Origin: Asanoa hainanensis
GTDB taxonomy: Bacteria > Actinomycetota > Actinomycetes > Mycobacteriales > Micromonosporaceae
Length of the DNA stretch: 64,000 nt
Reading direction: 5' to 3'
Assembly (NCBI RefSeq): GCF_900188485.1
Contig: NZ_FZPH01000008.1
Coordinates: 62,001 to 126,000 of the forward strand
In this document: positions 4,877 through 35,219 of the stretch, one piece after another
Numbering within the stretch: position 1 is the first letter of the stretch
How the letters are laid out: every line of letters begins with the position of its first letter
Notes under the pieces: generated by a model
What the model saw: only the letters and a program-made list of their open reading frames with translations
The model's database searches: none
What the model was told of the DNA's origin: nothing
Program-made: the position numbers and the translations under genes

Positions 4877-4936
4877 GGGCGGAGGCTACCAATCGGGACG
4901 ACACGCCCAGGAAGCGCCCGTTGTTTGTGATCTTAT

Positions 4937-4951
4937 TGAAAATGACTTCCA
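4937..4951. promoter_or_regulatory. Candidate Zur (zinc uptake regulator) operator
   Basis: TGAAAATGACTTCCA is a 7-1-7 imperfect inverted repeat that matches the actinobacterial Zur-box consensus as I recall it (TGAAAATGATTTTCA) at 13 of 15 positions. It lies in a low-GC island immediately upstream of, or overlapping, the start of the CooC-like gene, where a repressor would block transcription. No other copy was seen in the window. Position and sequence are observed; zinc control is inferred. Confidence 0.55.
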
Positions 4952-4959
4952 ATGTCAGC

Positions 4960-5922
4960 ATGAAAATCGCCTTTGTCGGGAAGGGCGGGAGCGGCAAGAC
5001 GACGCTGGCCGCCCTGCTCGCCCGCCACCTGGCCGCGGCGCCGGACCGCCCGCCGCTGCTCGCCGTCGACGCCGACATCAACCAGCACCTGGCCGCCGCG
5101 CTCGGCGGGGGCGAGGACGCGGTGCTCCCGGCGCTGGGTGACCACCTGACGGAGCTCAAGGAGTACCTGCGCGGCGACAACCCCCGGATCGCGTCCGCCG
5201 CCGCGATGGTCAAGACCACGCCGCCGGGTCGCGGCTCGCGGCTGCTCACCGTCGCCGGGACCAATCCCGTGTACGACGCGACGGTGCGCCAGGTGCGCGG
5301 CGTGCGGCTGGCCGTGACCGGCCCGTTCGCGGAGCGGGACCTCGGCGTCGCCTGCTACCACAGCAAGGTCGGCGCGGTGGAGCTCCTGCTCAACCACCTG
5401 GTCGACGGCCCGGGGGAGTACGTCGTGGTCGACATGACCGCCGGCGCCGACTCGTTCGCGTCGGGCCTGTTCACGCGCTTCGACGCGACGTTCCTGGTCT
5501 GCGAGCCGACCCTGCGCAGCGTCGGGGTCTACCGGCAGTACTTGGGCTACGCCCGCGACCACGACGTGCGCGTGCACGTGGTCGGGAACAAGGTGACCGA
5601 CGAGTCGGACGTCGATTTCCTCCGCACGCACGTCGGGGCCGATCTGCTGACCGTCCTCGGCCGCTCCGACTGGGTGCGGGCGGCCGAGCGCGGTGAGGTC
5701 CGGTCGCTGGACGCCCTCGAACCCGCCAACCACGCGGCCCTGGACCTGCTGCGCCAAGCGGCCGACGCCGCGGAGAAGGACTGGCCCCGGTACGCCCGGC
5801 AGGCCGCCGAGTTCCACCGCCGCAACGCCGTCGCCTGGGCCAACGACCGGGCCGGCGCCGACCTGACCGACCAGATCGACCCGGACTTCGTCCTGGGTGA
5901 CCACCACCTGCTCGTCCACTGA
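4960..5922 (+). CDS. CooC-like / MinD-type P-loop ATPase (putative metal-insertion or maturation ATPase)
   Basis: A 320-residue SIMIBI-class ATPase. Residues 1-15 (MKIAFVGKGGSGKTT) carry the deviant Walker A with the signature lysine; LLAVDADIN (33-41) supplies the switch aspartate and VVVDMTAGAD (155-164) Walker B. CooC proteins insert nickel into carbon monoxide dehydrogenase, but no such enzyme is in the window and the CooC CxC pair is not seen; Cys132 and Cys181 are the visible cysteines. I chose the ATG at 4960 because the P-loop normally starts at residue 1; ATG 4942 and TTG 4921 are in frame but overlap the candidate Zur box. No Shine-Dalgarno precedes 4960, so the message may be leaderless. 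The partner gene begins ten bases after the stop. Confidence 0.85.
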   Translation: MKIAFVGKGGSGKTTLAALLARHLAAAPDRPPLLAVDADINQHLAAALGGGEDAVLPALGDHLTELKEYLRGDNPRIASAAAMVKTTPPGRGSRLLTVAGTNPVYDATVRQVRGVRLAVTGPFAERDLGVACYHSKVGAVELLLNHLVDGPGEYVVVDMTAGADSFASGLFTRFDATFLVCEPTLRSVGVYRQYLGYARDHDVRVHVVGNKVTDESDVDFLRTHVGADLLTVLGRSDWVRAAERGEVRSLDALEPANHAALDLLRQAADAAEKDWPRYARQAAEFHRRNAVAWANDRAGADLTDQIDPDFVLGDHHLLVH

Positions 5923-5932
5923 GGAGAGAGTC

Positions 5933-6316
5933 ATGTCCCTGACCGTGAATGCTGACCTGCTCGACCGCGCCGAGGCCGGCCCCGTCGACGACGCGGACTT
6001 CGTCGACTGCGTCCGCACCTCCCTGCCGTACGCCTGGGAGGTCGTCTCCGACGTCGCCACCCGGGCCGCCGACGAGGTGGCCGAGCACGCGGTGCCGCCG
6101 CCGAGCGAGGCCGAGCGTGGCCAGTTGCTGCGCGCGCTGGCCAGCGACGCCATCCGGGGTGCGCTGGAGCGCCACTTCGGCGTCAAGCTGGCCTTCCAGA
6201 ACTGCCACCGGGTCGCCGCGTTCCCACCGGCGGCGGTCGACGGTGCCGGCTACCGGGAGTTCGTCTCGCCCCGCGAACAGCTCCGTAACCAGTCCCCTGA
6301 GCTCCGGGACTGTTAG
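5933..6316 (+). CDS. Small Cys/His protein co-transcribed with the CooC-like ATPase
   Basis: A 127-residue soluble protein that I do not recognise. A GAGGAGAG ribosome-binding site sits just before the ATG and the gap to the upstream ATPase gene is ten bases, so the two are almost certainly one operon. The first half is acidic and helical; residues 85-127 include KLAFQNCHRVAAF (Cys91-His92) and end in a terminal cysteine (SPELRDC). Cys26, Cys91, His92 and Cys127 are candidate metal ligands. Together with the upstream Zur-box candidate this suggests a role in zinc homeostasis or metalloprotein maturation; that is inference only. Confidence 0.75.
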   Translation: MSLTVNADLLDRAEAGPVDDADFVDCVRTSLPYAWEVVSDVATRAADEVAEHAVPPPSEAERGQLLRALASDAIRGALERHFGVKLAFQNCHRVAAFPPAAVDGAGYREFVSPREQLRNQSPELRDC

Positions 6317-31037: not shown

Positions 31038-34000
31038 TTAGAGTACGGGTTTGGTGTCCGCGAGTAACCGGTCGATCTCCTCGGTCACCGCGGCCCGGCT
31101 GCCGTGGATGATGTCGATCAGTGGCTCGCCGCGCCGGTCGAGCGCTCCCCACAGGCCCTGCCCGCCACCGACGAGGAACGCGACCGGGTGGATGACCAGC
31201 GCGGGGAAGCGCGGCGGCACCAGCACCCGGCCGTTGCGGTCGACCACGCCCTTGCGCCCGCCGGAGTCCACGACGGCCAGTCCCTCGTCGGTGAAACCGT
31301 CCACATAGCGGCCGTCGGTCAGCGCCGTCGCGAACCCGGTGTACTGCGGCGGCAACACGGTGCGACCGGCCTTGTCGATCGCGCCCCAGGCGCCCCGCTT
31401 GACCGCCGCGACCCCGCCGCGGAACGGGCGTACGTCCTCGAAGCCGATGTTGATGACGACGTCGCCCGACTTCTCGATCGCCAGCCAGTTGCCCCGGCCG
31501 TTGTGCGAGACCCAGGCGAGCCCGTCGTGGAACGAGCCGACGCCGAGGTAGCCCAGCGACGCGAAGAGCAGCACCTCACCGGACTCGTCGATCAGCTCCC
31601 ACGGCTCGGTCTCCGGCCGGCGCACCCAGGCGACACCCTCCCGGAACGGCTGCACCTCGGCGTAGCTCGGTGCGATCGCCCACTCACCCTCCGCGTCCAC
31701 GTACCCCCAGCGCTGCACCTTCTCGCTGAACCGGGGCTTGGGCGGCTTGTGGATCTGGAGGATCTCGTCCTCGTCGCGCGGGTACGGGCCGAGGCCGTTC
31801 GTCGCCACCTTGGCCAGCACCGCGTCGAGCGCCTGCTCGGTCCGGGCGATCAGCTCCGGATCGTCGACCTTGCGCAGGTCGAGCGCCTTCTCGAAGTGGT
31901 TGCAGGCCTCGATGTAGCGGCCCTGGTCGTAGCAGGAGCGCCCGGCGTGCTCGTGCATCGTCGCCCGCAGCCGGTCCGGGAGCTCGGGGGAGTTGGCCAG
32001 CGCGTTGAGCCGGTCCGCCTCCGCGAAGTCGCCGCGCCACTGCAGCACGTGGGCCAGGCGGGCCTGCGCGATCGAGATCCGGCGCAGCTCGCCGGTCGCC
32101 TCGGCGTGGGCCAGCGCCAGCTTGCCGTCGGCCAGCGCCTTGCCGAGGTCACCGAGGATCCGCGAGACGACCGCGCGCAGGCTGAGCAGCCGCGCCCGCG
32201 AGGCGTTGTCGGTCGCGGCGTCCACCTTCACGGTGAGCTGGTCGCGGATCGTCCGCAGCTCCTCCGGATCCTCGACAAGCTCCCGCAACGTCTCGCGATG
32301 GAAACGCCATTGGTAACCAGCGAGCACTTGTTCCGGGTCCTTGGGTGAATCCGGCTTCTCGTCCTCGTCGGCTTCGGTCGTGACGACTGGGTGAAGCATC
32401 GTGGGCGCGCGCAGAGCCGTCGCCGCGCCGGCCGCGGTGCCTTCCGGCACCGGCAGCACGGTATCGGCGGACGCCTTCTGCTCGGGTTCTGCTTCGTCGG
32501 CCGGTTCCGGCTCGGGGGCGGGTTCTGGCTCGGTCGTCGGGCCGGGCTCGGCGGTCGGAACAGGGTCCGCGGCAGCTTCCGGCTCTTCCGGGGATACGGG
32601 CGACGGTGCCGGACCGGTGTCGTCGGTCGTGCTGTCGTCCGGGGTCGCCTCCGCCTCGTCCGTCTCGGTGGTGTCCTCGGGCTCCGCCGTTTCCTCGGCG
32701 ACCGGCTCGTCCACGGGTGCCGGGGTGGCGTCCGGTTCGGTGGTCGCGGCGTTTTCCGCCACCGCGATCGGCTCGGGGGCCGGCTCCGGCTCTGCGGGTT
32801 CGGTGGCCGCCGGAGTCTCGTCCTGCGGCGCGTCCTCCGCTGGCTCGGCCTGCTCAGCCGTTTCGGCCGGGGCTTCGGCCTCGACCGGCTCGGGCTCCGC
32901 GGTGGGTTCGGGTTCAACGACGGGCTCGGGCTCCGTGATGGGCTCGGGCTCGGGTTCCGCGACGGCCTCGGGTTCGGGTTCGACGACGGGCTCGGGCTCG
33001 ACGACGGGTTCGGGCTCCGCGACCGGTTCGGGTTCGGCGACCGGCTCGACCGTCGGCGCCGCGACCTCGGCGACCGGCTCGGCGGGCTCGGTCGGTGTGG
33101 TCGGTTCGGTGAGGGCGGCCGCGAACCAGCCCGTGTCGGTGCGGGGCTCGGCGGGAGCAGGCGTCGGCGGCTCGTCCGTCGGTGCGGCGTGGAGCTCGTC
33201 GTCGGAGACCCGGCGTGGGTAGGCGGGTGCGGAGTCCGGTGTGCGCGGTGCCGGCACGCGGATGCCCGTGGCGGCCTCGGCCGCCGGTGGCACCTCGGCC
33301 ACCGGCAGCGGGGCGGCCGGCACCTCGGCCGGCGGCGGAACCTCGGCGCGCACCGGCTCCGGTGCCGCTTCGGGCGCGGCCGGTCGGGACCCGCCGAACT
33401 CCGGTACGGACGGCGGCGGCGGTGCCACCAGCCACGGCTCGGGCGTGCCGCCGTCGCGGGCGGCCCGGGTCGGGGCGTCGCCCAGCCGCTCCGGCTGGCG
33501 CGGCGGAGGCGGCGACAGCGGCGCGGTCGGCAGGTCGTCGACCAGCGGCGGACGCGGAGCGACCCGCTCCTCGTGCCGGGCGGCCGGACGCTGCTCCACC
33601 CGGGACGCCTCGCTGAACGGCACCGGCTCGCGGAACGCGGCCGGCCGCTCGTCGCGGCGCGGGGGCTCGGCGTGCGGCGGGACCTGCTCGCGGCGCGGCG
33701 GCTCGTGCCGGGCGGCTGGACGTTCGTCGCGGCGCCGCTCGTCGGGCTCGCGGAACGGCGCGACGCGCTCGTCGCGGCCCGGCGCGTGGCGCGGTGGCGC
33801 CTGGTCGCGGTAGGCGGCAGGCCGCTCGTCGCGGCGCGGTCCGTCGGGCGCGTCGGAGTACCCCGGCGGCGGACCGGGCTGGCGGAACGCGGCCGGGCGC
33901 TCGTCGCGGCGCGGCCGGCGGTCCGGCTCGCCCCGCCGGACCGGCTCGTCGGGGTAGGCGGGCGAGATCGGCTCGGCCGGCCGGTCGCGGTAGCCCGGGG

Positions 34001-35219
34001 GAGGCCCGCCGCGGCGCTCGTCCCAGCCACCGGGGCGGTCCGCGCGGCGCGGCCCGTCGCGGTCGTCGTGCGGCGCGCGATCGTCGTAGGGACGCCCGCG
34101 CCGGGTCTCGTCGTGCAGCGCCGCGGGCCGGTCCACCTGACGCGGCGGCCCCGCCGGGCGCCGGCGCTCGTCCGGGAACTGCTCGTGCGGGTAGCCCGGC
34201 GACACCGGCCCGGCCGGCCCGCGCCGCGCGCCGTCGACCGGCGGCCGACCGCCGCGGTCCCACGGCTCGGCTCCGCGCTCGTCGTGGAACGCGGCCTCAC
34301 GCCCGGGCGGCGCACCACGCCGACCGGGCTGCGACTGCGGCCGGTCGTCCCAGCCGGGTCCGGCCGGCGACTGCGGCCGTCCGGCCCAGCCGGGTCCGGC
34401 GGGGGACTGCGGCCGTCCGGCCCAGTCGGGCCCCGCCGGCGACTGCGGTCGCGCGGCCCAGCCGGGAGCGGGCGCGCGGCGGTCGTCGGCCGGGTGCTGC
34501 GGCCGGCCGCCACGCGGGTCGTCGTGGGCCGGGCCGCGCCCGCGCTCGTCGTGGAAGGCGGCCTCGCGCCCGGCCGGTGCGCCCCGGCGGGCCGGCGGGC
34601 CGTCGAGGTCGGCAGCCCGGCCGCGCCGGCCGACGCCGTCGACCGGCGAGATCGGGTGCGGCGCACGGGGATCCGGCATGTGTGGGTCGGTGGCGCTCGG
34701 GTCGGCCTTGCGCGGGTCCGCGTTGTAGGACTCGTCGACCGGGTCCGGTGCGGCACCGGCCCGGCCGCGCACCACGGCGCGCCCGGACGAGCGCCCGGAG
34801 CGCGGCTGGGGCTGGTCGCCCGGGTAGCGCTCGCCGCCCGAGGCCGCCCACTCGTCGGTGCGCTCGCTGACCCAGGAGGGCTCGGTCGACGCGACCCGTC
34901 GAGGTCCGGGGCCGAAGCCGCCGGTCTGGCCAGGAGCCTGGCCGGGTCCGTCGTCCCAGCCGGGTCCGCCCGGGCCGGCCGGCACACCGGTGGGCTCCCA
35001 GCCCGGCGCCGGTGGGCGGTCCTTGGCCCAGGCCCACGGGTCGTTGGGGTCGCGGTATCCGCCGCCGCCGGTGGTGCCGGTGTCACTGCGGCCGAGCTCG
35101 CGCAGCCAGCCGTCCTCGTCGCCCCAACCGCTGTCTAGTCGGTCGTCGTCGCCGCGCCGATCGCGGTCGCGACCCCGGCCGCCGTCGCGACGCCGGCGGT
35201 CTGCCCGTTCGTTGCTCAT
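31038..35219 (-). CDS. Giant WG-repeat protein with disordered N-terminal half and TPR-like domain
   Basis: A 1393-residue protein. Residues 1 to about 960 are low complexity: Arg/Asp/Gly-rich start (MSNERADRRRRDGGRGRDRD), 12-residue repeats (GRPQSPAGP, about 245-296), RRDERPAAFR repeats (about 420-560) and a Glu-Pro-Val tract (about 720-930). Residues about 990-1145 are helical and TPR-like (LARLAHVLQWRGDFAEADRL style). The C-terminus has at least four WG repeats: RWGYVDAEGEWAI, AWGAIDKAGRTVLPP, RKGVVDRNGRVLVPP and LWGALDRRGEPLI. No signal peptide is visible. WG repeats form beta-propeller-like scaffolds of unknown ligand. Start at ATG 35219; an open frame continues upstream to 35447 without clear support. 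Similar proteins occur across Micromonosporaceae, as I recall. Confidence 0.85.
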   Translation of the reverse strand: MSNERADRRRRDGGRGRDRDRRGDDDRLDSGWGDEDGWLRELGRSDTGTTGGGGYRDPNDPWAWAKDRPPAPGWEPTGVPAGPGGPGWDDGPGQAPGQTGGFGPGPRRVASTEPSWVSERTDEWAASGGERYPGDQPQPRSGRSSGRAVVRGRAGAAPDPVDESYNADPRKADPSATDPHMPDPRAPHPISPVDGVGRRGRAADLDGPPARRGAPAGREAAFHDERGRGPAHDDPRGGRPQHPADDRRAPAPGWAARPQSPAGPDWAGRPQSPAGPGWAGRPQSPAGPGWDDRPQSQPGRRGAPPGREAAFHDERGAEPWDRGGRPPVDGARRGPAGPVSPGYPHEQFPDERRRPAGPPRQVDRPAALHDETRRGRPYDDRAPHDDRDGPRRADRPGGWDERRGGPPPGYRDRPAEPISPAYPDEPVRRGEPDRRPRRDERPAAFRQPGPPPGYSDAPDGPRRDERPAAYRDQAPPRHAPGRDERVAPFREPDERRRDERPAARHEPPRREQVPPHAEPPRRDERPAAFREPVPFSEASRVEQRPAARHEERVAPRPPLVDDLPTAPLSPPPPRQPERLGDAPTRAARDGGTPEPWLVAPPPPSVPEFGGSRPAAPEAAPEPVRAEVPPPAEVPAAPLPVAEVPPAAEAATGIRVPAPRTPDSAPAYPRRVSDDELHAAPTDEPPTPAPAEPRTDTGWFAAALTEPTTPTEPAEPVAEVAAPTVEPVAEPEPVAEPEPVVEPEPVVEPEPEAVAEPEPEPITEPEPVVEPEPTAEPEPVEAEAPAETAEQAEPAEDAPQDETPAATEPAEPEPAPEPIAVAENAATTEPDATPAPVDEPVAEETAEPEDTTETDEAEATPDDSTTDDTGPAPSPVSPEEPEAAADPVPTAEPGPTTEPEPAPEPEPADEAEPEQKASADTVLPVPEGTAAGAATALRAPTMLHPVVTTEADEDEKPDSPKDPEQVLAGYQWRFHRETLRELVEDPEELRTIRDQLTVKVDAATDNASRARLLSLRAVVSRILGDLGKALADGKLALAHAEATGELRRISIAQARLAHVLQWRGDFAEADRLNALANSPELPDRLRATMHEHAGRSCYDQGRYIEACNHFEKALDLRKVDDPELIARTEQALDAVLAKVATNGLGPYPRDEDEILQIHKPPKPRFSEKVQRWGYVDAEGEWAIAPSYAEVQPFREGVAWVRRPETEPWELIDESGEVLLFASLGYLGVGSFHDGLAWVSHNGRGNWLAIEKSGDVVINIGFEDVRPFRGGVAAVKRGAWGAIDKAGRTVLPPQYTGFATALTDGRYVDGFTDEGLAVVDSGGRKGVVDRNGRVLVPPRFPALVIHPVAFLVGGGQGLWGALDRRGEPLIDIIHGSRAAVTEEIDRLLADTKPVL
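34332..34475. repeat. 36-bp tandem repeat, four copies, inside the WG-repeat gene
   Basis: Units start at 34332, 34368, 34404 and 34440, each beginning CGACTGCGG or GGACTGCGG. Each encodes a 12-residue unit of the form GPGWAGRPQSPA on the minus strand. The period is a multiple of three, so copy-number change keeps the frame. Confidence 0.85.

Follow-up and report, generated by a model that had tools for sequence, protein, structure and literature searches.

An ATPase of the CooC/MinD class and a small, cysteine-ending protein of the SCO5389 family are encoded side by side in Asanoa hainanensis, and comparison with related genomes makes it very likely that this two-gene operon is controlled by Zur. 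The pair probably handles zinc when zinc is scarce. How zinc is steered to essential proteins during scarcity is an open question, which has been studied largely through the COG0523 GTPases. A conserved pair of ATPase and carrier under a Zur-type box would offer a second, testable route of zinc steering, and the module would provide a first clue to what the SCO5389/PF20704 family does. The genes are situated in a window of 64,000 nucleotides, i.e., the whole stretch of DNA analysed here, which corresponds to C16:62001-126000 of the 44-contig, 8.64-Mb genome.

The first-pass annotation of this DNA had reported a 13-of-15 match to the Zur box directly upstream of the ATPase gene. This was confirmed, as TGAAAATGACTTCCA at 4937-4951 differs from TGAAAATGATTTTCA in 2 of 15 positions. 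It was the sole place in the window matching TGAAAATGATTTTCA with three or fewer mismatches, while 100 dinucleotide shuffles gave an average of 0.01 such places. Only 8 bp separate the palindrome from the ATPase gene. The published 21-bp actinobacterial Zur motif, quoted as taaTGaNAANNNTTNtCANta in a part of PMC5472717, is matched by the window operator in 11 of its 15 specified positions, and the S. coelicolor ChIP motif tGaNNatSatNNtCa in 9 of 11 (counted by eye). The right half-site (TTCCAAT) is weak. The predicted -10 hexamer overlaps the operator, which fits repression, and since the start codon follows this hexamer by only 6 bp the mRNA of the pair may be leaderless. Of 115 genes in relatives whose box scores at least 10, 29 have TTG(AC/AA/TG) starting 9-10 bp ahead of the 21-bp box. 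Neither neighbour of the pair in the window points to zinc: the divergent gene has a weak GT87-like match (8.2e-5, below the cut-off), and the downstream gene encodes a PHB-depolymerase-like esterase. The window also contains tandem repeats at 34324-34466 and 32882-33048 (36 bp x 4.0; 18 bp x 9.6), with periods that are multiples of three. The features of the locus are listed in Table 1.

Table 1. Features of the ATPase-SCO5389 locus, in window coordinates.
Feature	Position	Strand	Remarks
-35-like hexamer TTGTGA	4925-4930	+	17 bp before TCCAAT; putative promoter element
21-bp Zur-type operator TATTGAAAATGACTTCCAATG	4934-4954	.	15-bp core 4937-4951; 11/15 of published motif; kept upstream of orthologues
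-10-like hexamer TCCAAT	4948-4953	+	inside right half of operator; putative
ATPase gene, CooC/MinD-class (SIMIBI), 320 aa	4960-5922	+	ATG 4960; Pfam CbiA, CooC1 profile and fold matches
Cys132-Tyr133-His134 codons	5353-5361	+	aligned with CooC Cys-x-Cys motif
Shine-Dalgarno-like GGAGAG	5923-5928	+	in 10-base gap between ATPase and partner genes
Partner gene, SCO5389 family, 127 aa	5933-6316	+	ATG 5933; PF20704 / NF040488
Partner Cys91-His92 codons	6203-6208	+	N-C-H in 129/129 distinct family members
Partner C-terminal Cys127 codon	6311-6313	+	last residue Cys in 129/129 distinct members

The check proposed with the first annotation was whether orthologous pairs also have the box upstream, and they do. 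Among the 30 nearest Micromonosporaceae loci fetched, the start of the ATPase gene was readable in 29, and all 29 had a similar palindrome upstream and the partner gene downstream. For a full recount, 189 ATPase placements were taken from tblastn starts with none dropped, giving 163 distinct 120-bp upstream regions, and a box was defined as a score of at least 10 of the 15 specified positions of taaTGaNAANNNTTNtCANta. Such a box preceded 71 of the 76 ATPase genes directly followed by the partner, 51 of the 57 other genes without a partner directly behind, and 0 of the 30 ATPase genes in Streptomyces context; these counts, like those of ATPase-partner co-occurrence below, are raw numbers that ignore kinship between genomes. 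Five of the paired genes and six of the other unpaired ones scored below 10; among the latter, L106, L253, and L254 lay clearly under the threshold. Shuffled upstream regions reached the threshold in 47 of 1560 cases (3%). Two earlier counts had both taken gene starts by a text pattern, and thereby lost L041, L105, L114, L128, and L134, among others, together with genes having less than 130 bp upstream. One of them gave 88/96 and 0/25 against 20/440 upstream regions of other genes (Mann-Whitney p = 1.6e-49), where the 440 controls were other genes in 55 named loci outside the Streptomyces context, including some genuine zinc genes that raise the control count. The other, which additionally required C[YF]H in the ATPase, found the box at 68 of 73 paired genes and at 47 of 83 genes that have no partner beside them. 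A conserved element, GTGATGTGCTC or GTGGTGTGCTC, was observed ahead of the Zur box upstream of the SCO5389 gene in L087, L089, L130, L135, L136, L137, and L168, all with Micromonospora-type promoters.

The Streptomyces-context group comprised 25 named loci defined by gene order, to which the recount added L220, L223, L226, L229, and L233; L154, from a record labelled Microtetraspora glauca NRRL B-3735, also has Streptomyces gene context and was counted here. In these copies the box and the adjacent partner are both absent, so that the basic function there is not tied to zinc shortage. Four genomes, G317, G489, G505, and G522, hold two ATPase genes each and belong to one genus, taken as Streptomyces from gene context. 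In each of them the partner-paired copy scored 11, against 8, 8, 8, and 9 for the respective unpaired copies. This contrast was absent from the two-copy genomes outside the Streptomyces type, G244 and G115, where both copies are boxed (L088 10, L089 10, L090 12, L091 11). Partner genes were also found apart from the ATPase, namely 52 of 129 distinct ones, 21 of which have a box of their own scoring at least 10. The best of these reaches 14/15 (L073), in a genome (G065) without an ATPase match. The remaining 31 box-less genes consist of 25 main copies in the Streptomyces-type genus g66, L232 (the second copy of G558), and five from Micromonosporaceae, whose genomes hold another copy behind an ATPase with the exception of L069 (G053).

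Neighbouring genes were surveyed in 80 named loci (55 outside the Streptomyces context and 25 others) with flanks of up to 5 kb. Genes for zur, znuA/ABC-3 or surface anchors occurred near 9 of the 55 ATPases, versus none of the 25. The Dactylosporangium siamense locus (L133) runs ATPase, SCO5389, luciferase-like monooxygenase, Zur, ZnuA, ABC, and ABC-3; L116 has ATPase, SCO5389, and a ZnuA-type gene; and in L257, which belongs to a different family of the class, ATPase and SCO5389 are followed by a protein resembling ZnuA (34% identity) and by what looks, on visual inspection, like an ABC ATPase. For the two Fur-type neighbours tested, the closest PDB sequence was S. coelicolor Zur, 3mwm (1e-49 and 6.7e-48). 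Together with the conserved box, this neighbourhood in part of the relatives argues for the Zur regulation proposed at first pass. The luciferase-like monooxygenase (PF00296 in L133) adjoins the partner in many loci and is a common third member, present within the fetched stretch in 14 of the 55 loci. Genes like the one for the secreted protein of L131, which we take to be choice-of-anchor-M-like, were seen near the ATPase in L122, L130, L131, L134, and L136, and resemble surface partners of zinc ABC systems.

Both genes are concentrated in few families. In 296 genomes of the class, an SCO5389-family gene was found in 75 and a strong ATPase match (E < 1e-40, nine weaker matches set aside) in 58; 57 of these 58 contain both, G494 being without the partner, and 18 genomes have the partner alone, a co-occurrence that does not amount to statistically independent evidence, due to the concentration in few families. 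In the family of the window, 171 of 300 genomes have the ATPase when weak matches down to an E of 0.001 are counted. The partner was present in 127 of 150.

The partner has the 127 residues, the Cys91-His92 pair and the C-terminal cysteine that were first read from it, as well as Cys26. Its family name is an addition to the first reading, as are the common monooxygenase and a second partner copy in the genome: the protein matches PF20704 over its full length (2.5e-62, 209 bits against a cut-off of 27) and likewise NF040488 (3.7e-60, 201.7 bits against 75). PF20704 is named KH_NucS_shadow, and the function of this family is not known; within the open-licence PMC literature the name SCO5389 occurs in one paper, where a proteomics table lists it as hypothetical. 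In one Streptomyces-type genome (L190:563-1890) the housekeeping SCO5389 gene is divergent to nucS (Pfam NucS_N/NucS_C), a layout which may explain the Pfam name. Asn-Cys-His and a cysteine as the exact C-terminal residue were present in all 129 distinct partner proteins examined. The AF2 model is a well-ordered alpha/beta fold (pLDDT 93.0, last seven residues 76). None of its 412 Foldseek matches had an E of 0.001 or better, no metal-carrier fold was recognisable among them, and no confident sequence relative was found in the PDB.

The ATPase, whose closest named relative is from Asanoa iriomotensis (88% identity), matches Pfam CbiA (2.6e-6), and no cobW/HypB/UreG family is among the 22 Pfam families at an E of 1 or less. 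The CooC-like character claimed for it holds at the level of both profile, with CooC1 (PDB 3kje) coming first at 8.9e-20, and fold: the AF2 model (pLDDT 93.4) retrieved CooC1 first in Foldseek (6.9e-11), followed by MinD, the nitrogenase Fe protein and the ATPase-type HypB. It does not extend to the metal site. The profile alignment sets Cys132-Tyr-His134, in a loop around which the model is less certain (block pLDDT 74-77), on the Cys-Tyr-Cys of CooC ('GSQCYC'), so that Cys-x-His stands in place of Cys-x-Cys. Cys-Tyr-His was invariant in 78 aligned ATPases, and in a set of 156 sequences (CYH in 152, CFH in 3, one KCYH) Cys-x-His occurred in all. The genome gave no match to Ni-CODH (TIGR01702), in agreement with the carbon monoxide dehydrogenase reported as missing. 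A part of PMC3792862 reports metal chelation at the dimer interface for both CooC1 and UreG, through Cys-x-Cys in the former and Cys-Pro-His in the latter.

Metal insertion or zinc sparing was the function suggested for the pair in the first annotation, and it stays hypothetical. ATP-driven zinc allocation by the ATPase and its partner is the mechanism that fits best, and we give it an even chance of being correct. Zur bound at the operator would cover the -10 region and repress the two genes, and zinc shortage would switch them on. The ATPase dimer would then probably bind Zn2+ through two Cys132/His134 pairs at the dimer interface, and ATP turnover would pass the zinc from or to the small partner upon contact. 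The SCO5389-family protein would be a dedicated metal carrier or acceptor, employing Cys91-His92 and the C-terminal Cys127. UreG and HypB are likewise NTPases with a small partner, UreE and HypA, respectively, a logic similar to that of the window pair, and the SCO5389-family protein may play the part that UreE plays for UreG or HypA for HypB. In its own genome the pair might act in parallel to the COG0523-type (CobW) GTPase of a Zur-type cluster. The monooxygenase could be a client or a separate part of the zinc response; a pure chaperone model leaves it unexplained, which counts against such a model. Our wider proposal is tentative and has less than an even chance of holding: that actinobacteria possess a separate ATP-driven zinc-allocation machine beside the COG0523 GTPases, built of a Cys-x-His CooC-related ATPase and a Cys-ending carrier. 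Zur control over it would have been gained repeatedly, in Streptomyces-type genomes through a duplication that left a constitutive set in place.

The module has parts in common with several known systems. With CooC1, the maturation ATPase of Ni-CODH, it shares the SIMIBI ATPase fold, the deviant Walker A GKGGxGKTT and, at the corresponding place in the alignment, a metal-type motif, but it differs in the Cys-Tyr-His, in the Zur-type operator, in the SCO5389-family partner and in the genome's lack of a Ni-CODH match. The dimer-interface Cys-Pro-His described for UreG in that part of PMC3792862 offers the same ligand pair as the ATPase Cys-x-His, although UreG and HypB are G3E GTPases and the window ATPase has no match to their Pfam families. 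The Zur-regulated COG0523 GTPases (YciC/ZNG1-type) are also Zur-controlled SIMIBI NTPases, proposed for zinc allocation in a part of PMC2770081 which places CooC in the MinD-type branch; they are G3E GTPases with a CobW_C domain, whereas here a MinD/CooC-branch ATPase has a dedicated partner. SCO5389 itself is box-less in the Streptomyces-type housekeeping version, while its full-length relative in the window belongs to a Zur-type operon. The Cys-less ribosomal protein paralogues of Zur regulons resemble the module in that a second copy of a housekeeping gene stands under a Zur-type box, with fewer cysteines in the four two-copy genomes; unlike them, the partner keeps its core Cys/His and is not ribosomal. 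In parts of PMC6103462 and PMC7174638 that include regulon-table sections, no CooC-like ATPase is named. The open-licence PMC literature yielded nothing tying Zur to CooC-like ATPases, to luciferase-like monooxygenases or to the ATPase-partner module, nor a description of the module, which appears to belong with the Zur-regulated, metal-handling SIMIBI NTPases.

The likeness to these paralogues leads to the foremost alternative, according to which the operon is a zinc-poorer backup of a housekeeping pathway (ATPase, SCO5389 and monooxygenase) whose normal copies fail in zinc scarcity. We regard this as unlikely. In the four two-set Streptomyces-type genomes residue 26 is Thr in the partner accompanying the boxed ATPase but Cys in the housekeeping partner. 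The boxed ATPases contain one cysteine each, as opposed to three in the two housekeeping ATPases of similar length; in L231, however, the boxed ATPase has two. A second SCO5389-family gene in the A. hainanensis genome (L002:1442-2828, C42), without an adjacent ATPase, adjoins a luciferase-like monooxygenase. It has no box (8/15), and Zur control of this copy was rejected. Against a zinc-poor backup, all 129 distinct partners retain Cys91, His92 and Cys127, and only 8 of them have another residue in place of Cys26; one of these 8, L232, lacks both a box and an ATPase beside it. Moreover, 111 of the 127 partner-containing genomes of the window's family have a single match, which leaves most of them without a housekeeping copy that a backup could stand in for. 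A Cys-less backup was rejected for the window copy, where Cys26, Cys91, and Cys127 are all present, and may hold in the two-copy Streptomyces-type genomes.

Another alternative gives the monooxygenase the central role. The trio would make or load a small zinc-binding product or modification, zincophore- or cofactor-like, with the monooxygenase acting on the C-terminal cysteine of the partner and the ATPase assisting. The invariance of this cysteine and the frequent adjacency of monooxygenase and partner, box-less copies included, speak for it. Yet the monooxygenase was found in only about a quarter of the loci outside the Streptomyces context, clustering of the neighbours revealed no transporter, peptidase or ligase as a constant neighbour, and the partner is predicted to be a well-ordered conserved domain, unlike a precursor peptide. 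We consider this reading improbable.

Zinc allocation by the ATPase presupposes that it handles metal at all, and its strong structural neighbours include the MinD and FlhG/FleN folds. The ATPase might be a ParA/MinD-type positioning or regulatory ATPase that is zinc-regulated by chance and handles no metal, a prospect made very improbable by CooC1 being the best match in both profile and fold, and by Cys-x-His sitting at the CooC metal motif throughout the ATPases.

There remains the identity of the regulator. The pattern TGAAAATNATTTTCA was found at 30 places with up to three mismatches, versus 3 for the reversed-pattern control, and at 8 places with up to two, the window site among these. 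Two of the eight precede ZnuA genes (L012 and L015), one is in the cluster with the CobW gene (L014), and one lies before a Peripla_BP_2 protein (L009); near L010, L013, and L016 no zinc gene was recognised on inspection. On the published 21-bp motif the sites score 12 (L012), 13 (L015), 13 (L014), and 13 (L009) of 15, and the window site 11. A 19-mer version, ATTGRAAATGACWWYCAAT, matched with up to three mismatches only the window site and the L015 ZnuA site. That the palindrome serves a Fur-type regulator other than Zur is the least probable of the alternatives, since, although many Micromonosporaceae boxes (of the ATTGGAAATGACTTCCAAT type) reach only 9-10/15 and the genome encodes a further protein of the Fur type (40% identical to the query), more canonical boxes of 13/15 stand upstream of the same ATPase gene in other genera, zur and znuABC adjoin it in some loci, and a Zur orthologue at C18:291875-292252 (71% identical to the L137 Zur-like protein) is encoded about 2 kb from the L012 znuA. 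One boxed locus, L126, comes from a record labelled Rhodococcus rhodnii NRRL B-16535, and its box and partner C-terminus resemble those of Kibdelosporangium (L127), pointing to either a mislabelled record or a transfer.
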